DNA of 64,000 bases from Effusibacillus pohliae DSM 22757 (GCF_000376225.1 NZ_AQXL01000130.1:1-64000); one strand, 5' to 3'; positions 45,920 to 61,528 are shown, counted from the stretch's first letter. Program-made: numbers and translations. The notes: generated by a model from the letters alone, not told the origin.

Positions 45920-46825
45920 TTACTCAAAGTGATATTTTTTCAGCATCAGGTTGCCGATATAAGTGATCACTCCGTACAGGACAATCGATAAAATCGCGAG
46001 CAACGCGATACTGGTCATCACCAGATTCATTTGGAAAACCTGGCCTCCGTAAATAATCAGGAATCCGAGTCCGGCCTTTGACGACAGAAATTCTCCCATG
46101 ATCACCCCAACCAGGGTTAAACCGACATTCACCTTCATCGTTGCGACAAAATTTGGGATGCTGGCGGGGAGCACCACCATTCGCAACATCTGCCAGCGCG
46201 TGGCGCCGAAAGATTCCATCAACTTTAACTTCGTCTTGCTGATTTCTTTGAAACCGGACTCCAGCATGATGACAGTGACAATAATGGAAATCGCGATCGC
46301 CATCCCGTAGATTGACAGCCTGTCACCCAGCCAAATGTAGAAAATCGGCCCGAGTGCCACTTTGGGAAGCGCATTTAACACAACCAGATACGGGTCCAGC
46401 ACTTTCGACAAAAACGCGGACCACCATAAAAGAATCGCCAACAAAGTTCCGATGATCATCGACACGCAAAAACCGAGCAACGTTTCCTGACCTGTGATCA
46501 AAGTGTGGTTGAGAATCTTCCCCTTCAACAGGAGATCGCTGAAAGACGATACAATTTGCGAAGGCATGCCGGTGAGCATTGAATCAACCCAATGCAACCT
46601 TGCGGACAATTCCCATCCCGCAAGAAAAACGGCCAAAACAAGTAACCGTGCCATGCGAATCCACAGCAGCCTGCGCTTTTGCTGTTGCAAGTATTGCAGG
46701 TAGGGCGCACTACATTCAGGAAGTTGTTGTGCAGCGGATGCTGCCGTTTTTGCCACATACAGATCGGCGCTTTGAACCGGCTCGAGGTTTGCAGTTTCGA
46801 ACTTCTCGGTATTAAACGCGGACAT
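45920..46825 (-). CDS. ABC transporter permease, NMT1/SsuC type
   Basis: A 301-residue permease of the nitrate/sulfonate/taurine/thiamine-precursor class. About six helices after a hydrophilic N-terminus; the coupling-loop sequence ESFGATRWQMLRMVVLPASIPNFV is diagnostic. The start overlaps the ATPase gene by 14 bp. Last gene of the leftward operon, which is visibly AT-richer than its surroundings. Confidence 0.88.
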   Translation of the reverse strand: MSAFNTEKFETANLEPVQSADLYVAKTAASAAQQLPECSAPYLQYLQQQKRRLLWIRMARLLVLAVFLAGWELSARLHWVDSMLTGMPSQIVSSFSDLLLKGKILNHTLITGQETLLGFCVSMIIGTLLAILLWWSAFLSKVLDPYLVVLNALPKVALGPIFYIWLGDRLSIYGMAIAISIIVTVIMLESGFKEISKTKLKLMESFGATRWQMLRMVVLPASIPNFVATMKVNVGLTLVGVIMGEFLSSKAGLGFLIIYGGQVFQMNLVMTSIALLAILSIVLYGVITYIGNLMLKKYHFE

Positions 46826-47582
46826 TGTCTTCCAATTCCCCCCATATCGTATTGAAATAATCGTTATATTCCGGAGCCTGCCGAGTGAAAAACGGCGACG
46901 GACGTCCCCCGGCAAATTCAATCCGGTGGTCCGCCTTGATCGTGCTTGGCCGGCGGGACATGACGATCACCCGGTCCGCCATCGAGATTGCCTCCGAAAT
47001 GTCATGGGTCACTAAAATAACTGTTTTTCCCTGCTCCCTCAAAATGCTTGATATTTCATCCGCCAATGCCAGGCGGGTCTGGTAATCAAGCGCGGAGAAC
47101 GGTTCGTCGAGCAGAAGGATATCCGGTTGAACGACTAATGTTCGAATCAGTGCCACCCGCTGGCGCATCCCCCCGGAAAGTTGTTTCGGGCTATGGTGGG
47201 CAAATCCGCCAAGCCCGTACCGATTCAACAACTCCAATGCCCGCTCTGTCGCTTCCTTTCGGTCCATGCCGCGGATTTCCGCCCCGACCAATAAGTTATG
47301 CAAAACATCCCGCCATTCAAAAAGGTGGTCGTGCTGCAACATATACCCGATGCGTTTCGACGGTTCCTTAACACGCTCCCCGAATAAGCGCACTTCCCCT
47401 TCTGTTGGCTGGATTAATCCAGAGATCAGGGAAAGCAGCGTGCTCTTCCCACAACCACTGGGGCCCACAATGCTGATAAATTCTCCCTCTTCAATCGAAA
47501 GGTTAATATTCCGCAGCGCTTCCGTTTCCTCTTTCATCGTAAAATACCGCAATGAGACTTCGCGCAGTTCAATTTGAGCCAT
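46812..47582 (-). CDS. ABC transporter ATP-binding protein, NMT1/SsuB type
   Basis: A 256-residue ATPase with Walker A GPSGCGKST, Q-loop MLQHDHLFEW, signature LSGGMRQRVAL, Walker B ILLLDEPFSALD and the switch His in LVTHDISEA. It powers the adjacent permease and takes substrate from the lipoprotein encoded just upstream. Confidence 0.92.
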   Translation of the reverse strand: MAQIELREVSLRYFTMKEETEALRNINLSIEEGEFISIVGPSGCGKSTLLSLISGLIQPTEGEVRLFGERVKEPSKRIGYMLQHDHLFEWRDVLHNLLVGAEIRGMDRKEATERALELLNRYGLGGFAHHSPKQLSGGMRQRVALIRTLVVQPDILLLDEPFSALDYQTRLALADEISSILREQGKTVILVTHDISEAISMADRVIVMSRRPSTIKADHRIEFAGGRPSPFFTRQAPEYNDYFNTIWGELEDNVRV

Positions 47583-47651
47583 GAAACTCCTCCCTCTAAG
47601 CTACTTTGCCGCTCTTCATAACTCTCTTGCTTTCTACTCTTTCCCGTGTCA

Positions 47652-48701
47652 TTACTTGCCGCTCTTCCCTGCTTTTTCTGCGAACGTTGTGTCCACCACG
47701 TCTTCATACTTGACTTTTTGCTCCGGCTTTAAGGTGCCTGATTCAATCAAAACGTTTTGCAGAATGTTGAGTTGATCCTTTGTCATCACGGGAGTGGCGG
47801 GCCACGTATTCAACTTTTTATAGCGTTCGATCGACTTGGCGATCAGCTCTTTCGACGATCCTTCAAAATAGGGTGCAATAACCGCAGCCGCCTCATCGGA
47901 ACTGTGGCTGTTGATCCATTGCGTTGCTTTGTAAACCGCGTTGGTCCACGCCTGAATCACGTCTGGATGCTTTGCGATGTAATCGGTCGTGGCCACATAG
48001 GAAGTTTCCGGGAACGTGCCCATCGCTTCCCCCATTGATGCAACGAGATATGCCTTTCCCGATTGCTCCAGCATGGACGCGACCGGTTCAAAAACTTGAA
48101 TAAAATCGCCTTTCCCGCTTTCAAACGCCCCGACCATGGCTGGTGCCGCGATATTCGTAATCACCTCCGCGTTCACGTTATTCTTCTTTAAAACATTCGC
48201 CAGCACCATCTGGGGAGCGCTTCCGGGTCTCCAGCCGACGACCGATTTGCCGCTCACGTCACTCCATTTGAAATTGTCGATTTTTTTGCGCGACAAGAGA
48301 AACGATCCGTCAGTGCCCGTCAGTTGATAAAAGACTTTGACCTTTTTTTCTCCGTTTTGGTTGAAAACATAAATCGACGTTTCGGGTCCGACCAGTGAAA
48401 TGTCGGCGGTTCCTGCCAACAAGGCGGCCGTTCCTTTATCCGACCCTTGCGATGTCACCATATCGACCTGAATACCTTCTTCTTTAAAAAATCCTTTCTC
48501 GATTGCGACATAATGCGGAGCGTAGAAGAGGGAACGGATGACCTCGGAGAACCGGACGGTTTGAATGTTCTTGGACGGATCCGTCTTGGAACTGTCCTGC
48601 ATGTTGGAAGTAGATGATGTTGAACCCCCGCAACCGGTTAACGAAAAGGCTAATAAGGAAGCAATTGTGAACATGGAAACGAAAAATTGATTCTTTTTCA
48701 T
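47652..48701 (-). CDS. ABC transporter substrate-binding lipoprotein, NMT1/SsuA type
   Basis: A 349-residue lipoprotein: signal peptide with lipobox LTGC, then FSEVIRSLFYAPHYVAIEKGFFKEEG, which is the typical start of this family. Substrates of such proteins include nitrate, alkanesulfonates, taurine and HMP-type pyrimidines; nothing in the sequence decides between them. The start at 48699-48701 follows GGAGGGACAG. Confidence 0.88.
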   Translation of the reverse strand: MKKNQFFVSMFTIASLLAFSLTGCGGSTSSTSNMQDSSKTDPSKNIQTVRFSEVIRSLFYAPHYVAIEKGFFKEEGIQVDMVTSQGSDKGTAALLAGTADISLVGPETSIYVFNQNGEKKVKVFYQLTGTDGSFLLSRKKIDNFKWSDVSGKSVVGWRPGSAPQMVLANVLKKNNVNAEVITNIAAPAMVGAFESGKGDFIQVFEPVASMLEQSGKAYLVASMGEAMGTFPETSYVATTDYIAKHPDVIQAWTNAVYKATQWINSHSSDEAAAVIAPYFEGSSKELIAKSIERYKKLNTWPATPVMTKDQLNILQNVLIESGTLKPEQKVKYEDVVDTTFAEKAGKSGK

Positions 48702-48722
48702 AGTTAACTGTCCCTCCATTTC

Positions 48723-49808
48723 TCATTTTAACCAGAGCAAATTGGATTTGATCTCATCCCCGCCGAGGCGAACCGGATCTTTCATCCCGGCGGGAATTAA
48801 GTAACCTAATGCGATTTCCTGCCCGTAAACCTGAATTTCCTGATGCCCCATTTGTTGCAGCGGGGTGGCAGTAACCCGTTCACGCAGTACATAGACATCC
48901 AATCCGGGCAATAAATAATCGAGTGCGTATGCCAAGGGCATTCCGTTTTCAAGGATCTCGACAGAATGCGGATTGCCTACGATGAATGTCAAGCCAAGAC
49001 GTTTCGCTTCTTGAACGAGCGGATGAGTCGAGCGGACGCGGCTGATGCTTGCGATCAACGTGTCTGTCTCGGGATACAAGGAAAGAGCATGGTACAGGTG
49101 TTCCGTATTAAACCCGGTGTGCGGAAAGAAGTGCAAGATATTTTTAACCGGACTGTCCAAGTCTCCGTTGAGCAACAATGCGGAATTGGCGACGGTTGTC
49201 TCTTCGATGCAATCGGCGGAACGCACTTCCCGCTCCGACAAGAGCAGCGCTCTTTCGATGTTGCGCCCGATAAAATGATCCAGACGGCGAATGATGTCTC
49301 CGGCCGTCTTGATCTCATCGAGCGCCTTTCCTACATGCAAAACATTCCCGTGAATGCCTCCGAAACAAGTATCCGTTTTCTGCACTCTGTGGCCGTGAAT
49401 AAAAGTGATTCCCGGGTGCAGCCCGTGAAATGCCTCATGCAGTTCAATAATCGCTATGTCATAGAGGGGCAGATAATTGGTAAACGGCACTCCGCCCGAG
49501 TTGGCTGCTTCCGCAACCGGATGATGTACAACCAAAAGCTCTATGCCCATCGCGGAAGCAAGTTCAATCACCGATTCGGTCATGGTCATGACAACGCCAA
49601 GCTTGGTGATTGTTTTCTCCATGTTGCCAAAAACCAGTCCCGGTATTTCGATCACGCTTTTCCCAGGGATATGGGAAGTTTTGGTGACCACATAAGGATT
49701 GCTGTTCTCCGAAATCTCCCGCCAGTTCATGACGACCCGTCCGCGCGTGATGATATTAAGCGCTTCTAACACGGAAGAAACTTTGTACTTGGATGACGCA
49801 GTATGCAT
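48723..49808 (-). CDS. Nif3-like (GTP cyclohydrolase I type 2 fold) protein
   Basis: A 361-residue protein resembling the Nif3/YbgI dinuclear-metal family: GIELLVVHHPVAEAA carries a metal-type HHP motif (H95, H96), and the C-terminal half has GNPHSVEILENG, similar in place to the second family motif. The function of Nif3 proteins is unsettled; it is unusual for one to be bound into an ABC uptake operon, only 21 bp before the lipoprotein gene. It may act on the imported compound. AAAGGGGAG precedes the ATG. Confidence 0.65.
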   Translation of the reverse strand: MHTASSKYKVSSVLEALNIITRGRVVMNWREISENSNPYVVTKTSHIPGKSVIEIPGLVFGNMEKTITKLGVVMTMTESVIELASAMGIELLVVHHPVAEAANSGGVPFTNYLPLYDIAIIELHEAFHGLHPGITFIHGHRVQKTDTCFGGIHGNVLHVGKALDEIKTAGDIIRRLDHFIGRNIERALLLSEREVRSADCIEETTVANSALLLNGDLDSPVKNILHFFPHTGFNTEHLYHALSLYPETDTLIASISRVRSTHPLVQEAKRLGLTFIVGNPHSVEILENGMPLAYALDYLLPGLDVYVLRERVTATPLQQMGHQEIQVYGQEIALGYLIPAGMKDPVRLGGDEIKSNLLWLK

Positions 49809-50846: not shown

Positions 50847-51524
50847 ATGTTGGAAAAAGACCGTCACAATCAATGGGATCCGGAAGAATTGAGTCCGATC
50901 AGGGATAAAGTATACCAGTATATCAAACAGGCGATTCTGAACGGCGAATTGAAAGCGGGCGAGCGAATCGTCGAACGGGAGTTGGCCGACAAGCTGAATA
51001 TCAGCCGCACGCCAATCCGGGAAGCGTTGTTTCGATTGGAGTCGCAAGGATTCGTAAAAACGCTTCCCCGCAAAGGAGTCGTCGTGTCCCAACTTTCGCC
51101 TGACGAGGTGGTGGAACTATTCACCATCATGTCCGCCCTGGGGGGATTGGCTGTCAAACTGGCAGCCCAGAAAATCGACCCGGAACACCGCTTCCAGCTG
51201 GATCTGATGATCGCTGAGATCGACAATGTGTTGGCAGGGCAGGAGACGGGCAAAGACCTGAACCAGTTTCACTTGGAGATCGCCGACACCATCTACAAAT
51301 CGGCAAAAAGCCCGAAACTGTACGAAATGGTCAGCAGCCTGTACGAGTATATCCGGGCGTTCGCCCATCTCAGCCATGAACAGCCGGGCCGCAGACAGCA
51401 AGCGCTGCGGGAACACCGCGATATCGCGCTGGCGGTGCGCAACGGGGAAGCGGAACTGGCCGAGAATCTGATGAAGATCCATATCGAAAACTCGAAAAAA
51501 GCATATCTGGCATCGTTACAATAG
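50847..51524 (+). CDS. GntR family regulator, FadR/FCD type (paralogue 1)
   Basis: A 225-residue repressor or activator: winged helix (about 17-80; VERELADKLNISRTPIREALFRLE) and a C-terminal FCD ligand domain (about 90-220) with conserved Asp/His residues likely to bind a metal (HLEIADTIY, EHRDIALAV). Very similar to the regulator at 59817, which also supports ATG 50847 over a TTG at 50772. It converges with the permease gene, 12 bp between stops. Confidence 0.88.
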   Translation: MLEKDRHNQWDPEELSPIRDKVYQYIKQAILNGELKAGERIVERELADKLNISRTPIREALFRLESQGFVKTLPRKGVVVSQLSPDEVVELFTIMSALGGLAVKLAAQKIDPEHRFQLDLMIAEIDNVLAGQETGKDLNQFHLEIADTIYKSAKSPKLYEMVSSLYEYIRAFAHLSHEQPGRRQQALREHRDIALAVRNGEAELAENLMKIHIENSKKAYLASLQ

Positions 51525-51536
51525 TCGGAAGGTGCG

Positions 51537-52940
51537 TCAGAACAACAGTACGACCGTCAGCAGCAGCAACAGCAAAAAGCAGACGGTAAACGGCCAGCTC
51601 CAAAGCGAGATGCGGAACGGATTTTCCTTGATGAGGGACGACATAATGCCAAGTGTGGCGTTAAACGGTCCCATGATGAAAGTCGTCACCGCTCCGCCCA
51701 GCAGGGCGAGCGTCAGAGCGTTGGCCGAGACGGACAGGCTGGCCGGATCGAGCGATTGCGCCAGCAGCGTGATCGCCACCACCGGGTGCATCCCCAAGTA
51801 GGCCAGTACAAGCGGCAGCAGCGGCAAGCAAGCGAGAAACGCTCCCACTCCGATCGCCCGTTCGATTTGCAGCACCGCCCCGTTGATCGTTTCGCTATAG
51901 CCGGACAGTTGCAACGCCTTGACAAAAAATCCGGCGCTCAAAAAAATGGCGAATTGCTCCCCCATCTTCGGAATCTGCACGGTAACATGGTTGTGCACCT
52001 CCCGCCAAAACGATTTTGCTTGCCCCAACAGCATCGCCCAGGCGAATGCAAACGGCAGGCTGAGGATCGTCACGGTGGTCACGAGTCCGAACGGAAGCCA
52101 GTGCTCAAGCACCACCACCAGCATGAGAAAGAGAATGACTGCTCCCGCAAGTTCTGTCAATTTTTGTTTTGACGGAGAATGGCTGCCGCTGCACGTGGCC
52201 GAGTCCGCCGTGGCCGCCAATTCCCGCAATGAAATTTCGGCTTTCGTTTCAAGCGGAAGCCGCTTTTTTGCGACCTGGTGGCCGGCAACTTGTTGCAGGA
52301 GCCAATCGAGCAGCAAGCTGACGACGCTCAACCCGAACAATAAGGGAAACATCCGCAACCAGTTCGCTTTCGTCAGGTCCATGACGACGCCGACGATCGG
52401 GGCCACCGGCGTCCACAAAATCGGCAGGGCATAGCCGTGAATCATACCGAGTGAGGTAAACCGTTTGCTGTTGCGGATGCCAAACCGGGTCACCGCTCCT
52501 TGCACACTGTAGTACATCAGCGGGAGGGTGGCCAGGTTCAAAAAACTGCTCAGGAAAAAAGCCAGCCCCGACACCGTCCGGTACAGCTGCTGCGGAGTGT
52601 TGACCCGCCGCTGCAGCACTTGCTCAATCGCCGTGTTGTAGCCGCCCAATGGAATCGGCAGGGCCAGCAGCGGAATCAGCGCAAACAAACTTAACAGATT
52701 GAGCATCCCGCCATAAGCGGTTACATACGAGTACCAGTCGATGTGTCCGCTCCACAGCATCAGACTGCCGGTCAGCAGAAACAGTCCGGTCAGAGCCTGT
52801 ACCAGACGGGACGAACCGGGAATCGACAGGATCACCGCGAGCAGCGAAAGCAGGGAGATCACCGGGACCAACCCCTGCAGGCGAAAAAGGGTTGCGATCA
52901 GATATAGGCCGATCAGGGATAGAAACAGGAACGGTTTCAT
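51537..52940 (-). CDS. multi-pass membrane transporter, family uncertain
   Basis: A 467-residue protein with about eleven or twelve helices, a hydrophilic loop near residues 225-265 and conserved-looking LPIPLGGYNTAIEQVL and GMIHGYALPILWTPVAPIVG segments. The layout is that of ion-transporter-like permeases, but I cannot name the family. An operator of the island regulon (52981-52998) overlaps its likely promoter, so it probably moves the pathway substrate or a product. Confidence 0.65.
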   Translation of the reverse strand: MKPFLFLSLIGLYLIATLFRLQGLVPVISLLSLLAVILSIPGSSRLVQALTGLFLLTGSLMLWSGHIDWYSYVTAYGGMLNLLSLFALIPLLALPIPLGGYNTAIEQVLQRRVNTPQQLYRTVSGLAFFLSSFLNLATLPLMYYSVQGAVTRFGIRNSKRFTSLGMIHGYALPILWTPVAPIVGVVMDLTKANWLRMFPLLFGLSVVSLLLDWLLQQVAGHQVAKKRLPLETKAEISLRELAATADSATCSGSHSPSKQKLTELAGAVILFLMLVVVLEHWLPFGLVTTVTILSLPFAFAWAMLLGQAKSFWREVHNHVTVQIPKMGEQFAIFLSAGFFVKALQLSGYSETINGAVLQIERAIGVGAFLACLPLLPLVLAYLGMHPVVAITLLAQSLDPASLSVSANALTLALLGGAVTTFIMGPFNATLGIMSSLIKENPFRISLWSWPFTVCFLLLLLLTVVLLF

Positions 52941-52980
52941 AGGATCACCGGCTTTGGTTGGATTCTGTGTTTAACATTTT

Positions 52981-52998
52981 TGTATATTGTATACCAAA
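52981..52998. promoter_or_regulatory. GntR-type operator, site 1
   Basis: Reverse complement reads TTTGGTATACAATATACA, matching the core of sites 2-4. It overlaps a possible leftward promoter (TTGTTC, 18 bp, TATACA) for the permease at 51537-52940. Confidence 0.6.
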
Positions 52999-53122
52999 CA
53001 GCTGGGCTTGAGAACAAGTGAAGCGATTGTGTCGGATGCGGTCGAATCTCCGGATTTCTTGGGGAATCCTTGATTTAGAAATATTTTCTAGTGGTCAGGT
53101 TGAAAAAAATTTTCAAAGAATA

Positions 53123-53151
53123 TTCATATTTTGCGGACGATTTGCTATGAT
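53123..53151 (+). promoter_or_regulatory. SigA promoter for the creatininase-family gene
   Basis: TTCATA (53123-53128), 17 bp, TATGAT (53146-53151). Operator site 2 lies about 10 bp downstream, over the likely transcription start. Confidence 0.5.
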
Positions 53152-53160
53152 GTTGGTAGG

Positions 53161-53178
53161 TTGGTATACAAAACACAA
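53161..53178. promoter_or_regulatory. GntR-type operator, site 2
   Basis: TTGGTATACAAAACACAA; the first half is identical to sites 3 and 4, the second half is weaker. Located 38 bp before the creatininase-family start codon. Confidence 0.6.
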
Positions 53179-53215
53179 TTTTGACTGTTAGGTCGAGAAG
53201 CAGGAGGTTGCGCGC

Positions 53216-53968
53216 ATGAAATCCTATCTTCTCACTGAAATGACCTGGCCGGAGGTGAAGCAAGCCCTCGAGACGGTCAAACTGGCGATCATACCGGTGG
53301 GCGCTCACGAACAGCACGGTCCTCACATGAAAGAAAGCTGCGACGCTGTACTGGCAGCCGAAATGGCGAAAAAACTGGCGGAACGGTTGCACCCGCACGT
53401 TCTGGTGACGCCTCCCGTCAACTTTGGCGTTTCGATTCACCACATCGAGTTTCCGGGAACGATCACTTTGCAGCCGGATACGCTGATCCGCCTGTTGCGG
53501 GATATCGTGTGGTCCTTGCAGCAGCACGGCATCGGCAAGTTTCTGTTGCTCAATTCGCACGGCGGGAATCAATCGACACTGAGCGTCGCCTGCACGATTT
53601 TGACGCATGAGCTGGGGGCGGAGCTTTATTACGCGAAAACCACCGCATCCGCCAGGGAAGCGATGAAGAAGCATATCACGTCGACGCTGTACGGCCACAG
53701 TTGTGAACGCGAGGTGTCGGAAGCGCTTTACCTGGCTCCCCATCTGGTGCATCCCGACCGGCTGGAAAAAGGGGATATCCGGGAAGGACGCTGGCGCCTG
53801 CTGCGTCCGGGCCATGCTGTGCAAGGAACATACCGGTATCAAGAAATGACGGCCAACGGCTGCATCGGCGACGCTACCCGGGCAAGCTACGAAGCAGGCA
53901 AGGACATTGTGGAAGAAGCGCTGCACAACCTCACCGAGTCGCTGCGGCAAATTTTGCAAATCGATTAG
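53216..53968 (+). CDS. creatininase family amidohydrolase
   Basis: A 250-residue metal-dependent hydrolase. Metal ligands of the family are in place: E32 and H34 in GAHEQHGPH, D43 in ESCDAVLAAEM, H115 in NSHGGN, and a Glu in HSCEREVSEALY (near 164). Members hydrolyse creatinine or other cyclic amides and related substrates, so the exact substrate is open. AGGAGG precedes the ATG. First gene of the rightward island, behind operator site 2. Confidence 0.88.
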   Translation: MKSYLLTEMTWPEVKQALETVKLAIIPVGAHEQHGPHMKESCDAVLAAEMAKKLAERLHPHVLVTPPVNFGVSIHHIEFPGTITLQPDTLIRLLRDIVWSLQQHGIGKFLLLNSHGGNQSTLSVACTILTHELGAELYYAKTTASAREAMKKHITSTLYGHSCEREVSEALYLAPHLVHPDRLEKGDIREGRWRLLRPGHAVQGTYRYQEMTANGCIGDATRASYEAGKDIVEEALHNLTESLRQILQID

Positions 53969-54049
53969 GACAGATTAGGACAAACAGAAGGGATTTACAA
54001 CGCGTATCCTGAATTTGCAACCCAATTCGCGGAAATACCCAAAGGGCAT

Positions 54050-54087
54050 TAGTCGCGCCAAGGCACCAGAGGTGCCAGGTCGCGCTA
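54050..54087 (+). promoter_or_regulatory. bulged hairpin next to the permease ribosome site
   Basis: GGCACC-AGA-GGTGCC forms the tip and GG/CC, CGCG/CGCG and TAG/CTA extend it with single-base bulges. It ends directly at AAAGGAGGTG, whose nearest ATG (54098) is only three bases away. It may control or simply shield translation initiation, or be a repeat element. Confidence 0.4.
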
Positions 54088-54184
54088 AAGGAGGTGAATG
54101 TTCGGAAACGGGCGGGCGCACAAAAGGGAATCGCTGGTTGTCGATCAAAAAGTCAAAAAGTTCAGGAAGAAGGTGTGCGAAAAA

Positions 54185-55636
54185 ATGACATTAACCGCAG
54201 CTCATTGGATCTATGCTTTGGTGACCCTGGTCGTGATCCTCACGGTTCTGTTTCGAAGGGGCGTCGTTTTGCCGACTCTCGTTGGCACATTGCTGGTCGC
54301 TTGGGTGCACAAAGGAAGTTTTGTCGGTGGACTGCAGGCGATTTTCAATGCGAATCTGGTAGCGGCGAAGGAACTGTTCAGCATTTTTCTGATCATCACG
54401 TTCATGGTGGCGCTGCTGCATTCTCTGAAAGATCTCGGAGCGGACAAGAGGATGATCACACCGATCCAAAAAGTGTTCACCAACGGACACGTGGCCTTCT
54501 GGGTGTTGGCCGGGATCACCTATTTCATTTCCCTCTTTTTCTGGCCGACTCCTGCTGTACCCCTGCTTGGCGCTTTGCTGATCCCAGCGGCGATTCGGGC
54601 GGGCCTGCCGGCGATGGGCGCGGCGATGGTGGTTGCGATTGCGGGTCAGGGCATGGCCTTGTCGTCCGACTATGTGATGCAAGTGGCTCCGATGCTCAGC
54701 GCGAAAGCGGCAGGCGTCGACAAATCGTTGGTCGCCGACCGCGGATTGCTGCTGTCGCTGATCACCGGCGGAACGGCGATGATCGTTTCCTATGCGCTGA
54801 TGGCCAAACGTATGCGAAAAGCGGGGGATCTTGAAATTGACCGCGAACTTGGCATCCTCGGCTCCCTGCAGACGCAGGCGGAAGTGTCTGCCGCATCGGA
54901 AACCGGCTCTCCTCAGATGACCGCCATGGAAAAATGGGGCAAGCTGTTCGCCGTACTGGTCCCGCTGTCCTTGCTGGCGGTTGTGGTCTATATGGCGTCT
55001 ACCAAAATCAACGGGCGGATGGGCGGATTTGAAGGCGGTGACGGCGCCGCGTTTATCGGCGGTGTGGCAGCCCTGTTGCTGGTGCTGGCGTCGTTTGCAT
55101 ACGGCCGTGTGCACGCGCTCGATAAAATCAGCGAGCATATGGTGGAAGGATTCGTGTTTGCGTTCAAAGCGATGGGGCCGGTCGTGCCGATCGCAGGCTT
55201 CTTTTTCCTCGGCAGCGGTGATTTTGCCGGAACCATTCTGTCGTTGAAAGAGGGAATGAAGGCACCCCATTTTCTGCCGGATTTGGTGCAGGCGGCTCAG
55301 TCGTTCATCCCGGCGAACGGATTCCTTACGGCGTTTGGCATTTTGCTGGTGGGAATGTTGTGCGGGCTGGAAGGTTCCGGTTTTTCCGGATTGCCGTTGA
55401 CCGGCAGTCTATCGGGGGCACTGGCGGCTGGGGCGCATGTGGATCCTGCCACGTTGGCGGCGATCGGACAGATGGGATCGGTCTGGACGGGCGGCGGCAC
55501 GCTGATTGCCTGGTCATCGCTGGTGGCGGTCGCCGGTTTTGCAGGCGTACCTGTGATCGAACTGGCGCGCAAAAACTTCTTGCCGGTTGTGGCGGGGCTG
55601 GTGTTGTCGACGATCGTGGCGCTTGTAATCTGGTAA
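54185..55636 (+). CDS. multi-pass membrane transporter, family uncertain
   Basis: A 483-residue protein with about twelve helices. FFWPTPAVPLLGALLIPAAIRAGLP and the Gly-rich LCGLEGSGFSGLPLTGSLSG look like substrate-site hairpins of ion-transporter-type permeases. Start uncertain: ATG 54185 follows GAAGAAGGTG, while ATG 54098 follows a perfect but very close AAAGGAGG and adds 29 basic residues. It lies between the creatininase gene and operator site 3, suggesting import of the island's substrate. Confidence 0.7.
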   Translation: MTLTAAHWIYALVTLVVILTVLFRRGVVLPTLVGTLLVAWVHKGSFVGGLQAIFNANLVAAKELFSIFLIITFMVALLHSLKDLGADKRMITPIQKVFTNGHVAFWVLAGITYFISLFFWPTPAVPLLGALLIPAAIRAGLPAMGAAMVVAIAGQGMALSSDYVMQVAPMLSAKAAGVDKSLVADRGLLLSLITGGTAMIVSYALMAKRMRKAGDLEIDRELGILGSLQTQAEVSAASETGSPQMTAMEKWGKLFAVLVPLSLLAVVVYMASTKINGRMGGFEGGDGAAFIGGVAALLLVLASFAYGRVHALDKISEHMVEGFVFAFKAMGPVVPIAGFFFLGSGDFAGTILSLKEGMKAPHFLPDLVQAAQSFIPANGFLTAFGILLVGMLCGLEGSGFSGLPLTGSLSGALAAGAHVDPATLAAIGQMGSVWTGGGTLIAWSSLVAVAGFAGVPVIELARKNFLPVVAGLVLSTIVALVIW

Positions 55637-55663
55637 AGAGTTTGAAAGTTTTGCAAAAAACAG

Positions 55664-55692
55664 TTGACGCAATAGAGATGGATCGGTAAAAT
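55664..55692 (+). promoter_or_regulatory. SigA promoter for the HDO-ALDH operon
   Basis: TTGACG, 17 bp, TAAAAT. Operator site 3 begins 13 bp after the -10 box. A second possible promoter (TTGATA at 55802, TACAAT at 55823, 15-bp spacer) contains site 4. Confidence 0.6.
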
Positions 55693-55705
55693 GAAGATAA
55701 GAATT

Positions 55706-55724
55706 TTGGTATACCAAATACCAA
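55706..55724. promoter_or_regulatory. GntR-type operator, site 3
   Basis: TTGGTATACCAAATACCAA: a perfect 12-bp palindrome TTGGTATACCAA followed by an extra half ATACCAA. It matches the TnGTnnnACnA signature of FadR-subfamily GntR sites. Confidence 0.7.
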
Positions 55725-55809
55725 GAACGCATAAGTGTAAACCAATCGCACTTGCTAAAGCAAACGAATCACGGGCGTATGAGGGTTCGGCGGCTCAATA
55801 CTTGATAGT

Positions 55810-55827
55810 TTGGTATACCATATACAA
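55810..55827. promoter_or_regulatory. GntR-type operator, site 4
   Basis: TTGGTATACCATATACAA, with the same TTGGTATACCA core and a following ATACAA half. It lies 57 bp before the HDO gene. Together with site 3 it could allow repression by looping or cooperative binding. Confidence 0.7.
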
Positions 55828-55884: not shown

Positions 55885-56604
55885 ATGGCCGAAATGTTGC
55901 CACGCGAAGAGTTTCGCAAACAGTTGGAGGAAGCGATCAAGGGCAAGCACAGCCAGGCGTCTCCGTTCAGTGTCGCCTGGTCGAACGGGCAGCTGCAGCG
56001 TGAACATTTTGCCCGCTGGGCGGAAAACCACTACCACTACGTAGGCCCGTTTGCCGACTATCTGGCCTACATCTACGCGAACATTCCCGACAAACTGACG
56101 GACGCAAAGGATTTTATCCTGCAAAACATGTGGGAAGAAGAATTGGGGGGTGACCGGCACACCGACCTGCTGATCCGATTTGCGGAAGCGTGCGGGACCA
56201 CCCGCGAACGGGTGACCGACCCGGCCAACATGCTGCCCACTACGCTCGGGCTGCAAAGCTGGTGTTACGCTGTCGCTTTCCGGGAGCATTTCGTGGTGGC
56301 GACCGCCGCTCTGATCGTCGGTCTCGAATCGCAGGTGCCGGACATCTACCGCAAGCAGCTGCCGCCGTTGAAGGAAAAATACGGTTTTACCGATGAAGAA
56401 GTCGAATTCTTCGACCTGCACATCGTATCGGACGAAATTCACGGGGAGCGCGGCTACCAAATCGTGCTCGACTATGCGGATACCCCCGAACTGCAGCAAC
56501 GCTGCCTGGAAATCGTGCGCACCGGCGCGAAAATGAGATGGATGTACATGGATGGACTCTATCGCGCCTATGTGCAGCCGGATCTCGAAAAAGTAGGAGT
56601 GTAG
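55885..56604 (+). CDS. heme-oxygenase-like diiron oxidase (HDO/PqqC-TenA fold)
   Basis: A 239-residue all-helical protein of the iron-containing redox enzyme family. The full ligand set of HDO enzymes such as CADD is present with the right spacing: E85 and H92 (EELGGDRH), E148 (GLESQ), and H179, D183, H186 (HIVSDEIH). HDOs activate O2 at a diiron site for oxidative decarboxylation, C-C or C-N cleavage or N-oxygenation, so the reaction cannot be read from the sequence. GGAGGAA precedes the ATG. It heads an operon with an aldehyde dehydrogenase, which suggests an aldehyde product. Confidence 0.85.
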   Translation: MAEMLPREEFRKQLEEAIKGKHSQASPFSVAWSNGQLQREHFARWAENHYHYVGPFADYLAYIYANIPDKLTDAKDFILQNMWEEELGGDRHTDLLIRFAEACGTTRERVTDPANMLPTTLGLQSWCYAVAFREHFVVATAALIVGLESQVPDIYRKQLPPLKEKYGFTDEEVEFFDLHIVSDEIHGERGYQIVLDYADTPELQQRCLEIVRTGAKMRWMYMDGLYRAYVQPDLEKVGV

Positions 56605-56689: not shown

Positions 56690-58153
56690 ATGATCGGAAC
56701 CACAGTCCATACGTACAAAAATTACATCGGCGGCGAATGGGTGGAAGCGTCGAACGGCGAAACGTTTGACAGCATCAATCCGGCGGATACGGAAGACATC
56801 GTCGGACGTTTTCCGGCCTGCACGGCGGAAGATGCGATCCGGGCGATCCGCGCGGCGGAAGCAGCGTTTCCCGGATGGGCCAGGACAGCTCCCGCCAAGC
56901 GGGCGGAGATTCTGAACAAAGCGGCCGATCTTCTGGAACGTCGGCTGGAGAGAATCGCGCAGGAACTGACCCGGGAAGAAGGAAAAGTGATCTCCGCCAG
57001 CCGAATGGAAGTCAAACGCTCCGCCGCCACCTTACGCTATTATGCGGCAGAAGGCCTCAGTTTCAGCGGCGAAACGTTCCCGAACGACGATCCCGCTTCC
57101 CTCGTGTTTACGATCCGCGAACCTTTGGGGGTGGTATCGGTGATCACCCCGTGGAATTTTCCCGTATCCATTCCGGCGAGAAAAATCGCCCCCGCCCTGA
57201 TCACCGGCAACACGGTGGTGTTCAAGCCGGCATCCGATACGCCGTTGATGGGGTTGCGGCTGGTGGAAGCGTTGGTCGATGCCGGGGTTCCGGCCGGAGT
57301 CCTGAACTTTGTGACCGGATCCGCGTCGAAGGTGGGGCAGCCATTGACCGCGGATCCGGCGGTCAAGGCGGTCACGTTCACCGGATCGACGCAGGCGGGA
57401 GAAGCGATCCACCGTTCCGTGCCGCTGACGACCCGCACCCAGATGGAGTTGGGCGGCAAAAATCCGCTTTTGATCATGGAAGACGCCGACCTGGAGAAAG
57501 CGGTGGAGCTGACGATCAAAGGCGGTTTTGAGTTGACGGGCCAGGCGTGCACCGGCACCAGCCGCGTGATTGTGATGCGTTCCGTGCACGATCAATACGT
57601 GGAAAAGCTCGTGCAGCACACCAGCCGGTTAAAAATCGGCAACGGCTTTACCGACGGCGTGCAGATCGGTCCGCTGGCGAATCGCAGTCAACTGGCAACG
57701 GTGATTGACTATGTGGCAGTCGGCCGGGCGGAAGGGGCGACATTGGTGTACGGTGGCGAACATCTGACAGACGGCGAGTACGGTAAAGGCTACTACGTGC
57801 GGCCGGCCATTTTTACCGGTGTCACACCGGATATGCGCATCGCCCGGGAAGAAATTTTTGGGCCGGTCGTGGCTGTGATCGCGGTCGACAGCCTGGAAGA
57901 AGCCCTGCGGGTGGCCAATTCGGTCGAGTACGGACTCTCCGCATCGATCGTCACGAAGGATCTCGAAAAGGCGCAAATTTTTGTCAAAGAGATTCAATCC
58001 GGCACAGTCAAGGTCAACCGCACGACCACCGGTAACCTGATGAACGTGCCATTTGGCGGATTGAAAAAATCGAGCTCGTCCACATTCCGGGAATCGGGCC
58101 GGGTCGGACTGGAATTTTTCACGCAGATGAAGACAGTGTACTTCGGGTATTGA
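56690..58153 (+). CDS. NAD(P)-dependent aldehyde dehydrogenase
   Basis: A 487-residue ALDH. ITPWNFP, FTGSTQAGEAI, the catalytic Glu in MELGGKNPLL and Cys in GQACTGTSR, and EEIFGPV are all intact. The GQACTGTSR motif and overall look are closest to 2-oxoglutarate semialdehyde (2,5-dioxovalerate) dehydrogenases, but substrate prediction in this family is weak. GAAGGTGGCAGG precedes the ATG. It probably oxidises the aldehyde produced in the island's pathway. Confidence 0.9.
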   Translation: MIGTTVHTYKNYIGGEWVEASNGETFDSINPADTEDIVGRFPACTAEDAIRAIRAAEAAFPGWARTAPAKRAEILNKAADLLERRLERIAQELTREEGKVISASRMEVKRSAATLRYYAAEGLSFSGETFPNDDPASLVFTIREPLGVVSVITPWNFPVSIPARKIAPALITGNTVVFKPASDTPLMGLRLVEALVDAGVPAGVLNFVTGSASKVGQPLTADPAVKAVTFTGSTQAGEAIHRSVPLTTRTQMELGGKNPLLIMEDADLEKAVELTIKGGFELTGQACTGTSRVIVMRSVHDQYVEKLVQHTSRLKIGNGFTDGVQIGPLANRSQLATVIDYVAVGRAEGATLVYGGEHLTDGEYGKGYYVRPAIFTGVTPDMRIAREEIFGPVVAVIAVDSLEEALRVANSVEYGLSASIVTKDLEKAQIFVKEIQSGTVKVNRTTTGNLMNVPFGGLKKSSSSTFRESGRVGLEFFTQMKTVYFGY

Positions 58154-58171
58154 GACGGAAGGAGAGTGGAT

Positions 58172-58651
58172 ATGAAACAAGTGTTCAAGTTGGAACTGGC
58201 GGACGCAAAACGGATGATCGAGGCGGCGAAGCAAAAAGCAGCGGAGATTGGCGTCCCGGAAACGATCGCGATCGTCGATGACGGCGGCCACCTGATCGCG
58301 CTGGAACGGATGGACGGCGCCCGCATCACCGGTCCGGAGATCGCGGCGGCAAAAGCGTTTACGGCCGCTGGCCACAAACGTTCCACCCATCTGTTCAACA
58401 CAGAGCCGAACGGACCGGCGCTGCCCGGCAACGAGGCGTACGGCATCCAATTGATGTTTCCGGGCAAGTTCGCCATTTTCGTAGGAGGCTTCCCGGTTGT
58501 CGTCGACGGCCAGGTGATCGGCGGCGTCGGCATCAGCGGCGGCAACGGCGAACAGGATACGGCGGTTGGCACGGCTGCGCTGCAGGCACTGAAGGAAGCA
58601 CTGGCCCCGGCAGGCCACACGGTGGTCGCCGAGCCGAACATCAAGCTCTAG
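58172..58651 (+). CDS. GlcG/HbpS family protein (DUF336)
   Basis: A 159-residue protein with the family start LADAKRMIEAAKQKAAEIGVP, IVDDGGHLIALERMDGA, and the C-terminal GVGISGGNGEQDTAVG. Relatives are linked to glycolate and diol use or bind heme; the general function is unknown. ATG 58172 follows GGAGAGTGG; the stop of the ALDH gene is 18 bp upstream. Confidence 0.85.
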   Translation: MKQVFKLELADAKRMIEAAKQKAAEIGVPETIAIVDDGGHLIALERMDGARITGPEIAAAKAFTAAGHKRSTHLFNTEPNGPALPGNEAYGIQLMFPGKFAIFVGGFPVVVDGQVIGGVGISGGNGEQDTAVGTAALQALKEALAPAGHTVVAEPNIKL

Positions 58652-58675: not shown

Positions 58676-59254
58676 ATGTCCTATCGGCAACTGATCATCG
58701 GATTTGCACGATCCGGGGTTCTCGGGTACGGCGGGGGCCCCTCGGTGATCCCCTTGATCCGGTATGAAGCGGTCGAAAAGTACAGATGGATGAGCGACGA
58801 AGATTTCGGCGATGTGCTTGCGTTGGCGAACGCGCTGCCCGGCCCGATTGCCACGAAAATGGCCGCTTACATCGGATACAGGGTGAAAGGCACCTCGGGT
58901 GCCGTTGTCGCGATTCTGGCCCACATTCTGCCTACCGTCATCGCCATGATCGGGCTGCTTGGCTCGCTGTACGCCCTCCGGGAATCATCCGTGGTAAGCG
59001 GCATGATCCGGGCGGTAGGACCTGTGATCGGGGTGATGCTGGCGGTGATGGCGTATGAGTTTTTCGCCAAAACGTGGAAAGGGATGGGGCCGGTGCGGGC
59101 GATTCTGGTGACGCTCGTCAGCCTGCTGGCTTTGCAGGGACTGGGCATCCATCCGGCCGTGTTGATTGTCGTGTTCCTGGCGGTCGCATTTTTCAAGACT
59201 ACCTTTAAAAATACGGTTGCTTCATCAGCGAAAGGGACGGCGGAAAAATTATGA
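58676..59254 (+). CDS. half-size ChrA (chromate transporter) family protein, first of a pair
   Basis: A 192-residue membrane protein with about six helices. LGYGGGPSVIPLIR and LALANALPGPIATKMAAYIGY are the ChrA motifs. Half-size ChrA proteins work as pairs of homologous units; its partner begins four bases before its stop (ATGA). In an accessory catabolic operon the pair may export an organic or oxo-anion rather than chromate. Confidence 0.85.
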   Translation: MSYRQLIIGFARSGVLGYGGGPSVIPLIRYEAVEKYRWMSDEDFGDVLALANALPGPIATKMAAYIGYRVKGTSGAVVAILAHILPTVIAMIGLLGSLYALRESSVVSGMIRAVGPVIGVMLAVMAYEFFAKTWKGMGPVRAILVTLVSLLALQGLGIHPAVLIVVFLAVAFFKTTFKNTVASSAKGTAEKL

Positions 59255-59781
59255 CGTATCTGCAATTGTTTTGGGCGTTTTTTCTATCGAATATCCTGGG
59301 CTATGGCGGCGGTCCGCCTTCGATTCCGCTGATCCAGAAGGAAGTGGTCGACCACTACGGATGGCTGACGTTGAAACAGTTCGGCGATCTGCTCGCTTTG
59401 GGGAATGCGCTGCCGGGACCGATCGCGACGAAAATGGCCGGGTTTGTCGGATACCAGGTGGGCGGTGTGACGGGGGCTGCGGTCGCTCTGATCGCCACCG
59501 TGCTGCCTTCGGCGGTGGCTGTGGTGGTACTGTTCAAATTTGTCGATCTGTTCCGGGAAGCCCCGCAAGTGAAAGCGATGACGCGGGCGGTGCAACCGGT
59601 GGTGGCGGTGCTGCTCGCTGTGCTGGCGTACCAATTTTTGCTTGATGCGTGGCACGCCAGCGGGTGGCTCAACACCGGCGTGCTGGCGATCGCCAGTTAT
59701 GTGGCGCTGGAGGTCATCAAGATTCACCCGGCCTTCGTGATCTCGGGAGCGTTGGCGTATGGGGCTTTGTTTCTCAGTTAA
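59251..59781 (+). CDS. half-size ChrA family protein, second of a pair
   Basis: A 176-residue partner of the preceding gene, with LGYGGGPPSIPLIQKEVVDHYGWL and LALGNALPGPIATKMAGFVGY and about six helices. Similarity to the first unit is strong over the N-terminal half. The two probably make a heterodimeric antiparallel transporter. Confidence 0.85.
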   Translation: MTYLQLFWAFFLSNILGYGGGPPSIPLIQKEVVDHYGWLTLKQFGDLLALGNALPGPIATKMAGFVGYQVGGVTGAAVALIATVLPSAVAVVVLFKFVDLFREAPQVKAMTRAVQPVVAVLLAVLAYQFLLDAWHASGWLNTGVLAIASYVALEVIKIHPAFVISGALAYGALFLS

Positions 59782-59816: not shown

Positions 59817-60497
59817 ATGCATGGGCAGCAGGAACTGTGGGCTGCGGAAGAACTGGTGCCGATTCGGGATAAAGTCTACCAGTATTTGAAGCAGCAGATT
59901 TTGAACGGGGTGTACAAGGCGGGCGACCGCCTGGTCGAGCGGGAACTGGCCGGACAGCTGGGCATCAGCCGGACGCCGATCCGGGAAGCGCTGTTCAGGC
60001 TGGAATCGGCCGGGCTGGTGGTGACGGTGCCGCGGCGTGGCGTGGTGGTGACGCAAATTTCCCGTGAGGAGATCGAAGAGATTTTCACGATCCTGTCATC
60101 GCTCGAGGCATTGGCGGTCCGCCTGGCCGCGCAAAAAATCGATGACCAAACGGCGGTCGAATTCGGCCGGATGATCAGGCAAATCGACCTTTATTTGAAC
60201 GGTGATTCCAAACAGGAGATCGGCCAGCTCCACATCGAGATCAATGAACAGATTTACAAAGCGGCAAAAAGTCCCAGGTTGTACGAAATGCTGAGCGGGC
60301 TGCTCGATTACATCCGGGCGTTCGCCCATCTTGGACATGAGATGCCGGGCCGGATGGAGCAGGCGATGCGGGAACACCGGGACATTCTGGAAGCGGTGCG
60401 CAACAAGGAAGTCGAGCTGGCGGAAAACCTGACGAAGATTCACATTGAAAATTCGAGGAAAGCCTATTTGCGGGCCACGCAGGGCAAGGAGGTGTAA
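59817..60497 (+). CDS. GntR family regulator, FadR/FCD type (paralogue 2)
   Basis: A 226-residue paralogue of the regulator at 50847: winged helix with VERELAGQLGISRTPIREALFRLE and FCD domain with LHIEINEQIY and EHRDILEAV. The recognition-helix regions of the two are nearly identical (GISRTPIREAL against NISRTPIREAL), so both could bind the same operators while sensing different ligands. AAGGAGGTGAG precedes the ATG. It closes the HDO-ALDH-ChrA operon and probably regulates it. Confidence 0.88.
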   Translation: MHGQQELWAAEELVPIRDKVYQYLKQQILNGVYKAGDRLVERELAGQLGISRTPIREALFRLESAGLVVTVPRRGVVVTQISREEIEEIFTILSSLEALAVRLAAQKIDDQTAVEFGRMIRQIDLYLNGDSKQEIGQLHIEINEQIYKAAKSPRLYEMLSGLLDYIRAFAHLGHEMPGRMEQAMREHRDILEAVRNKEVELAENLTKIHIENSRKAYLRATQGKEV

Positions 60498-60500
60498 GCC

Positions 60501-60770
60501 TTGGCCATCCGGATTGAAGTGTGCGAAACCAACCTGTTGAAACACGCTTCCACAGCTGCCGTATTTTCGAGGATCCAGCGGGAGTTTCCCGAAGTTGAGT
60601 TTGCGATCGAATACTTGGAAATGAAGTGCGGCGGCATCTGCGGAATCTGCAAAAATACGCCGTACGCCTTGGTCAGCAAAAAATTTATTACCGGCATGTC
60701 GGCCGACAGTTTTTACGACAACCTGAAACGATACCTGACCGGCCTGCTGGCGGAAGATCCGGTCGCGTAA
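60501..60770 (+). CDS. DUF1450 protein (YuzB-like, CxxC)
   Basis: An 89-residue protein starting at TTG behind AAGGAGG, three bases after the regulator stop. IEVCETNLLKH near the start and MKCGGICGICKNTPYALV carry the four Cys of the DUF1450 family, probably a small metal or iron-sulfur protein. Function unknown. Its close link to the regulator and the ferredoxin suggests a redox role in the island. Confidence 0.75.
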   Translation: MAIRIEVCETNLLKHASTAAVFSRIQREFPEVEFAIEYLEMKCGGICGICKNTPYALVSKKFITGMSADSFYDNLKRYLTGLLAEDPVA

Positions 60771-60789: not shown

Positions 60790-60951
60790 GTGCGGAAAGC
60801 ACCGGTGACAGAGGTCGGCAATGGGCAACAGTTTGCGGTCGTGATCGGGCCGGATTTTGATAAGATTGGACAGTTGCTGGAGCAATACGCACAGTCAGGA
60901 GGGAATGCCAATGCCGCGGATTCACTTTGCGAGCACGAACAAGTCGGTTGA
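60790..60951 (+). CDS. possible 53-residue ORF overlapping the ferredoxin start
   Basis: GTG 60790 opens a frame whose protein looks coding-like (EVGNGQQFAVVIGPDFDKIG followed by QLLEQYAQSGG) and ends at TGA 60949-60951, 41 bp inside the ferredoxin gene in another frame. There is no strong ribosome site. It may be a small coupled gene or chance. Family unknown. Confidence 0.3.
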   Translation: MRKAPVTEVGNGQQFAVVIGPDFDKIGQLLEQYAQSGGNANAADSLCEHEQVG

Positions 60952-61249
60952 AATTGAAGCAGATAGGGAAACGAACATTCTGCGCGCTTCCATCCGGTAT
61001 GAGGGAGGAATCCCCTACCGTTGCGGCGGCGGCTTATGTGGAACATGCAAAATCCACATCGAGCAAGGTGCGGAAAATTTGACTCCGATCAAGAAACAGG
61101 AGATTGCCCGACTGGGCGACAAACTGCAGGAAGGATACCGGTTGGCGTGTCAGACATTTACGAAAGGCGATGTGACCATTACCTGGGACACAAGTGTCAA
61201 TGTGAAGGTGCCGCCAAAGATCAAGGAGTTGTGGGAGAAAGCGAAATAG
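60911..61249 (+). CDS. 2Fe-2S ferredoxin
   Basis: A 112-residue plant-type ferredoxin. The cluster motif C-x4-C-x2-C is in YRCGGGLCGTCK, with the fourth Cys in YRLACQTF. The second of two close ATGs (60911) is chosen because it lies eight bases after AGGAGG; the first is too close. Likely electron donor for an oxygenase, possibly the diiron enzyme at 55885, which is inference from location only. Confidence 0.88.
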   Translation: MPRIHFASTNKSVEIEADRETNILRASIRYEGGIPYRCGGGLCGTCKIHIEQGAENLTPIKKQEIARLGDKLQEGYRLACQTFTKGDVTITWDTSVNVKVPPKIKELWEKAK

Positions 61250-61360: not shown

Positions 61361-61456
61361 ATTGATAAGCCGTTTGCACAAATGTTTGCTTATGATGTGA
61401 TGAGTAGCCGATCGGTCGAGCCATTCTCATAGGCTGTAAGACTGGTCGGTTTTTTT
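61361..61456 (+). ncRNA. csp leader RNA with internal terminator
   Basis: Starting near the predicted transcription start, a first hairpin (CAT..ATAAGC with GCTTAT..ATG, 61361-61397) is followed by a terminator: 10 bp with two wobble pairs (61408-61417 with 61440-61449), an inner AGCC/GGCT helix, and seven T. Two further hairpins (61476-61491 and 61493-61509) precede the AGGAGG of the csp gene. Either an attenuated leader or a roughly 95-nt small RNA. Confidence 0.6.
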
Positions 61457-61528
61457 CTGGTCATAACGGATTTGGGCAAATGAGTATTTGCAGCCATGCG
61501 AGTCATGGCATTTTAGGAGGATTCCCGC

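Follow-up and report, generated by a model that had tools for sequence, protein, structure and literature searches.

Four copies of an 18-bp site within a 64,000-nucleotide stretch of the Effusibacillus pohliae DSM 22757 genome (hereafter, the window), together with a fifth copy past its end, very likely serve as operators through which the island's two paralogous FadR-subfamily repressors control a single regulon. Based on sequence comparisons, we place the probability of this reading at about 0.86. What we computed are the sites, their rarity, their conservation before the same genes, their co-occurrence with the regulators, the promoter geometry and the motif common to the paralogs; from these we infer binding, repression, an inducer and a class of substrate. 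An earlier note on this DNA had proposed such a regulon, and comparative genomics, in the form of co-occurrence and recurrence of the same genes, lends support to that proposal. The regulon is new; its kind, a local regulon of the FadR type, is already known.

Predicted operator sites and their rarity in the genome

The features of the island are listed in Table 1. All four sites that the earlier note had placed at 52981, 53161, 55706 and 55810 are present, with coordinates correct to within one base, and a fifth target exists beyond the window. The gene that follows the fifth operator encodes aspartate dehydrogenase domains, and its closest solved relatives are L-aspartate dehydrogenases.

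Table 1. Regulators, operators, promoter-like sites and genes of the island
Feature	Position	Strand	Remarks
Regulator 1, FadR subfamily (GntR + FCD)	50848..51524	+	ATG 50848 most likely start, rather than TTG 50772
Left permease	51537..52940	-	predicted target; homologs in same cluster
Operator 1	52980..52997	-	TTGGTATACAATATACAA; left permease start 39 nt on; overlaps that gene's predicted -10
Left permease promoter-like site	52986..53014	-	TTCTCA-17-TACAAT; overlapped by operator 1; weak
Creatininase promoter-like site	53123..53151	+	TTCATA-17-TATGAT, extended -10
Operator 2	53161..53178	+	TTGGTATACAAAACACAA; one mismatch; creatininase start 37 nt on; begins 10 bp past predicted -10
Creatininase-family amidohydrolase	53216..53968	+	predicted target
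Right permease	54098..55636	+	probably co-transcribed with creatininase
HDO operon promoter, sigma-70-like	55664..55692	+	TTGACG-17-TAAAAT; equivalent position in most homologous loci
Operator 3	55706..55723	+	TTGGTATACCAAATACCA; 14 bp past predicted -10 of HDO operon
Operator 4	55810..55827	+	TTGGTATACCATATACAA; HDO leader; start codon 57 nt on; 104 bp from operator 3
Heme-oxygenase-like dimetal oxidase (HDO), CADD/PqqC relative	55885..56604	+	predicted target
Aldehyde dehydrogenase of HDO operon	56690..58153	+	
HbpS-like protein of HDO operon	58166..58651	+	
Two half-size chromate-transporter-family genes	58676..59781	+	
Regulator 2, FadR subfamily (GntR + FCD)	59817..60497	+	inside HDO operon
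DUF1450 protein	60501-60770	+	
[2Fe-2S] ferredoxin	60911-61249	+	
Fifth operator	C130:64216-64233 (= L018:1217-1234)	-	two mismatches; 216 bp outside window; 13 nt before L-aspartate dehydrogenase start codon

The search pattern, TTGGTATACMANATACMA (18 bp), was derived from the four window sites themselves, and hence the fifth site and the other genomes serve as the independent tests. We scanned the 3,363,524-bp genome with this pattern at up to three mismatches, with the reversed pattern as a control. Three exact matches and a single one-mismatch match correspond to the four window sites, and the sites with at most two mismatches number five in total, all inside 11.3 kb. The other 11 matches have three mismatches each, compared to 14 matches altogether for the reversed pattern. 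In the genome-wide scan for the 18-bp site, then, the five best matches cluster and weaker ones occur only at control frequency. With a 15-bp core pattern, the same four sites were returned at 0–1 mismatch. The third half of operator 2 (ACACAA) is weaker than those of the other sites.

An NMT1/THI5-type ABC importer and a DUF34/NIF3-like gene (45920-49808) adjoin the island; in the window, the importer genes carry no operator at up to two mismatches. ABC genes similar to this importer carry the operator at two other loci (L044, L078).

Architecture of the operator

Across 79 aligned sites from 18 homologous loci, GTATAC is invariant, and information is at background level outside a block of about 21 bp. 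The consensus is close to TTTGGTATACAATATACCAAA, with either ACCA or ACAA as the last arm. An inverted pair, TnGT-AT-ACnA, makes up the core, and a third half-site, ATACnA, lies 7 bp further right. Circularity was avoided by searching for the bare core TKGTATACMA first and inspecting the flanks afterwards. A third half (at least 4 of 5 letters, on one side) was found beside 69 of the 86 core dyads, compared to 8.8 (SD 2.7, maximum 18 in 500) when flanks were shuffled. This far exceeds the shuffled-flank expectation, and therefore we regard the third half as part of the site. The initial description, a TnGTnnnACnA dyad plus an extra ATACnA half, was right about the extra half, which is a fixed and highly conserved half-site, and wrong about the spacing, which is 2 nt (TnGT-2-ACnA) rather than 3.

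Operators of the FadR subfamily have TKGT/ACMA boxes in which GT and AC are 2–3 nt apart, and in many groups further, weaker half-sites lie 7–12 nt from the site centre (Suvorova et al. 2015, PMC4494728). The operator described here conforms to this rule, with two bases between GT and AC, and the system shares with that subfamily the GntR helix-turn-helix (HTH), the FCD domain and a clustered local regulon. In contrast to the weaker boxes of that study, the third half here, ∼10 nt from the core centre, lies on one side only and is nearly as conserved as the core; the target genes also differ. The architecture is thus a strong case of something already described (PMC4494728).

NanR of E. coli offers another comparison. 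This FadR-subfamily repressor has the operator (GGTATA)3, made of direct repeats with 2–3-nt spacers, to which three dimers bind through N-terminal extensions (PMC8012715). Both systems have GGTATA in the half-sites, more than two half-sites, and an operator downstream of the polymerase binding site. However, the core here is an inverted pair, and the one further half is oriented like the right arm, such that direct repetition is limited to halves two and three, which are 7 bp apart; the arrangement is not that of a NanR-type multi-dimer operator. The N-terminal tails of the regulators here vary in length and are not conserved.

We also considered a single 21-bp palindrome, TTTGGTATAC-A-ATATACCAAA. 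Most pairs fit this form, which is exact in L046 (17647-17664), but symmetry would require G at position 11, and 76 of the 79 sites have A there. A core dyad with a third half fits better, and for the bound complex either reading is possible.

Two paralogous regulators and their probable common operator

The two regulators are 65% identical over 216 residues. Each has an N-terminal GntR winged helix (PF00392; 70.0 and 76.8 bits, cut-off 27) and a C-terminal all-helical FCD domain (PF07729; 71.9 and 77.1 bits, cut-off 24.3). Neither reached the cut-off of the curated NCBIfam regulators (PhnR, NanR, UxuR, LldR, CsiR and others), the best score being for TIGR03338 (105–108 bits versus 271.5). Among 22 regulators, the recognition helix SRTPIREAL is invariant and the FCD histidines, the presumed metal site, are nearly so. 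The earlier note had seen two regulators at the island's edges with nearly the same recognition helix. The HTH regions are almost identical, as stated, but regulator 2 lies within the HDO operon and not at an edge, because the regulon extends to the aspartate dehydrogenase gene at about 64.2 kb.

In a tree of the 22 regulators, a GntR1 group (15 rows, support 89/94) stands apart from the GntR2-like rows, and four genomes retain one regulator of each type. Such separation and retention point to distinct roles. It could be, with odds of roughly one in three, that only one paralog uses the sites, or that each does so at different promoters or with opposite sign, the other controlling something else or acting as an anti-repressor; some FCD regulators, for example CitO, are activators (PMC4746285). 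Arguing against such a division of labour, genomes with GntR1 only have the operator consensus TTTGGTATACAATATACAAAA (51 sites) and those with GntR2 only have TTTGGTATACAATATACCATA (13 sites), which is the same operator, before the same target genes. Given this, and with HTH regions almost identical, the two regulators of the window very probably share their binding sites. There is also a precedent for redundancy in GntR1 and GntR2 of Corynebacterium glutamicum, where it was established by deletion (PMC2230225). These are likewise two similar FadR-subfamily paralogs with one binding site and one set of targets, although they control a gluconate regulon, are 78% identical and recognize sites with the canonical 3-nt spacing, compared to 65% identity and 2-nt spacing here.

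No site with up to two mismatches lies directly upstream of either window regulator gene. Regulator 2 would be controlled only via the HDO operon, and this would amount to feedback control.

Promoter geometry and direction of control

The sites had been said to overlap or directly follow the likely promoters of the left permease gene, the creatininase gene and the HDO operon. Promoter-like sites do precede operators 2 and 3, and operator 1 overlaps a −10 box; what had been missed is that the aspartate dehydrogenase gene is also a target, its operator being preceded by the promoter-like TTGACC-18-TAGAAT. The promoter call for the left permease gene is weak, given the operator's own resemblance to a −10 box. 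From the end of the −10 box to the first base of the operator, the distance is 10 for operator 2, 14 for operator 3 and 11 for the aspartate dehydrogenase operator. Among 100 oriented site windows, which include related genomes and hence are not independent, 25 promoter-like sites (called as consensus matches) end 7–18 bp before the operator, whereas shuffled flanks give about 3.4 (P about 4e-14). These −10 boxes suggest repression at the start of transcription, since an operator that covers about +1 to +20 has the geometry of a repressor site.

The opposite sign, with the sites serving as activator positions, is improbable. Activators exist in the FCD family, including CitO and C. glutamicum GntR1/2 at ptsG (PMC2230225), but activators rarely work from sites right downstream of a predicted −10 box, where the excess noted above is found.

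The second HDO site lies in the leader, and many homologous loci likewise have a second site close to the HDO gene. In four genomes of one family (L073-L076), this site ends 13 nt before the start codon, and in three of these (L074-L076) it merges into the ribosome-binding sequence AGGAGG. The simplest reading is that the second site acts as a roadblock or accessory operator. The paired HDO sites are 36–104 bp apart and follow no clear rule of helical phasing; therefore, we make no claim of DNA looping.

Sites, regulators and target genes in other genomes

Among 60 relatives, the three with a regulator ortholog at E < 1e-40 are the only three with at least three sites. We then surveyed 399 genomes of the class, 16 of which (E. 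pohliae included) have a regulator ortholog at E < 1e-50. Of these 16 genomes, 14 contain exact sites, versus 3 of the 383 others (Fisher P = 3e-21); the counts include related and hence non-independent genomes (five of family f16, four of f26). Sites with at most one mismatch occur in 16/16 and 55/383 genomes, respectively; such matches number 67 in the regulator-bearing genomes (control, 1) and 65 in the others (control, 41). There are three exceptions. Two genomes (G235, G289) have the same cluster with more distant GntR proteins (39–41% identical), and in a third (G186), exact sites precede another GntR gene.

A sister motif is present in G186. Four copies of TTGGTATACCACATACCA, one with two mismatches, lie around the start of another FadR-type regulator (L079:5953-6146), which is 27% identical and has an unrelated gene context.

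Three searched genomes of the same genus have neither the regulator nor clustered sites; one of them (G001) has one isolated one-mismatch match, located inside a gene. The island is therefore accessory. Attribution of the sites to another regulator, whether from among the genome's five other FCD proteins or from a different family, is highly unlikely: the genome does encode seven FCD proteins altogether and FadR-type operators are all alike, but across the 399 genomes exact sites accompany either the regulators of the island or its cluster, and they are absent from the congeneric genomes, where the island is missing.

We read 18 loci. Twelve came from the class survey; the others were the window and five further loci, two of them in Schinkia azotoformans LMG 9581 and an Alkalihalobacillus macyae MAG. 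Losses and rearrangements aside, the cluster comprises two permeases, creatininase, HDO, aldehyde dehydrogenase, the HbpS-like protein, two ChrA halves, GntR, one or two ferredoxins and aspartate dehydrogenase, the last being part of the cluster in most other genomes. The left and right permeases matched no Pfam or NCBIfam family, though they are conserved in the cluster across families. A site with up to two mismatches lies 13–161 nt before the HDO gene, often paired, in 18/18 loci, and in most there are also sites upstream of the creatininase, aspartate dehydrogenase and a ferredoxin gene, this conservation having been partly sought with the pattern defined from the window. In a separate search for HDO itself, 19 genomes of the class were found to carry the gene, all 19 with a site (up to two mismatches) just upstream, including three added by this search (G226, G235 and G289; in G226, 27 nt before). 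With S. azotoformans and the A. macyae MAG included, 21 of 21 HDO-bearing loci have an upstream site. The sites precede the same genes in about ten bacterial families and in at least 20 other Bacillota. In a phylum-wide draw of 398 genomes, HDO was seen in E. pohliae only, and hence we do not claim a wider range.

In two genomes (G152, G171), additional sites are present elsewhere; some of these stand before genes of no apparent relation, which counts against the proposed regulon. In G171, an exact site (L083:5091-5108) is divergent from an unlinked ferredoxin gene of the same family as that of the cluster; in G152, an exact site (L082:5741-5758) lies upstream of an unlinked small conserved protein whose family adjoins the cluster elsewhere. 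These last two sites suggest that the regulon reaches beyond the cluster there.

The idea that the sites are chance palindromes or a repeated element can be dismissed, for although TTGGTATACCA is palindromic and A+T-rich and hence gives a low rate of intergenic chance matches, all five best matches of a 3.36-Mb genome fall within 11.3 kb, the flanks beyond 21 bp have no mutual similarity, and chance is ruled out by the genome counts, the fifth site, the counts in other genomes with the same genes downstream across about ten families, and the alignment of 79 sites.

The HDO enzyme and the predicted pathway

Homologs of the regulated HDO, 67–90% identical, are present in at least 20 other genomes, and its closest solved relatives are CADD/PqqC-type enzymes (PDB 1rcw, 9pj4, 8va9). 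Its score against TIGR04305 is 103.7, below the cut-off of 200, placing it outside the CADD p-aminobenzoate synthases. In an alignment, the HDO keeps all six metal-binding positions of CADD-like enzymes, known from CADD, and has a serine at the position of Tyr27 of CT610, the sacrificed tyrosine of CADD. Sacrifice of a tyrosine in the CADD reaction is described in PMC11965152. With serine instead of tyrosine, a self-sacrificing p-aminobenzoate synthase of the CADD kind is out. Also in contrast to CADD, the HDO gene here belongs to a transport and degradation cluster, and the enzyme is likely catabolic.

Judging from the permeases, amidohydrolase, ferredoxins, HDO, and aldehyde and aspartate dehydrogenases, the gene set looks like one for uptake and oxidative degradation of a nitrogen-containing compound. 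We found no published description of it within the openly licensed literature. A joint proposal, offered tentatively, is that the third half of the operator is obligatory and bound by a second dimer, and that the pathway is O2-dependent, catabolic and not yet described: HDO would cleave a nitrogen-containing substrate opened by the creatininase-type hydrolase, and the aldehyde and aspartate dehydrogenases would handle the products. Rfam yielded no riboswitch that could name the substrate. An Rfam match to RybB at 61381-61458 falls below threshold (30 bits, cut-off 40); it lies ahead of a cold-shock protein gene and is probably due to chance.

A model for the regulon and its significance

In the model we favor, the four window sites and C130:64216-64233 would form one regulon, each site consisting of a TnGT-AT-ACnA pair and then ATACnA 7 bp later. 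Without inducer, one or more regulator dimers would cover about +1 to +20, blocking expression of the permeases, the creatininase-type hydrolase, the HDO–aldehyde dehydrogenase operon (with regulator 2) and aspartate dehydrogenase. The inducer is probably a carboxylate intermediate held in the metal-binding FCD domain. Its arrival would release the regulators, such that import and degradation of the nitrogen-containing substrate switch on together.

Loosely neighboring genes thereby become a defined regulon with a testable operator. Aspartate dehydrogenase joins this regulon, as do ferredoxins and an NMT1-type ABC importer in other genomes, so that the list of genes is probably complete for a degradation pathway centred on the HDO enzyme. 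To our knowledge, known members of the HDO superfamily are nearly all biosynthetic. With two paralogs on one operator, the system also offers a clean natural setting in which to ask why both repressors persist. The main interest, though, lies in the undescribed pathway that the regulon delimits.
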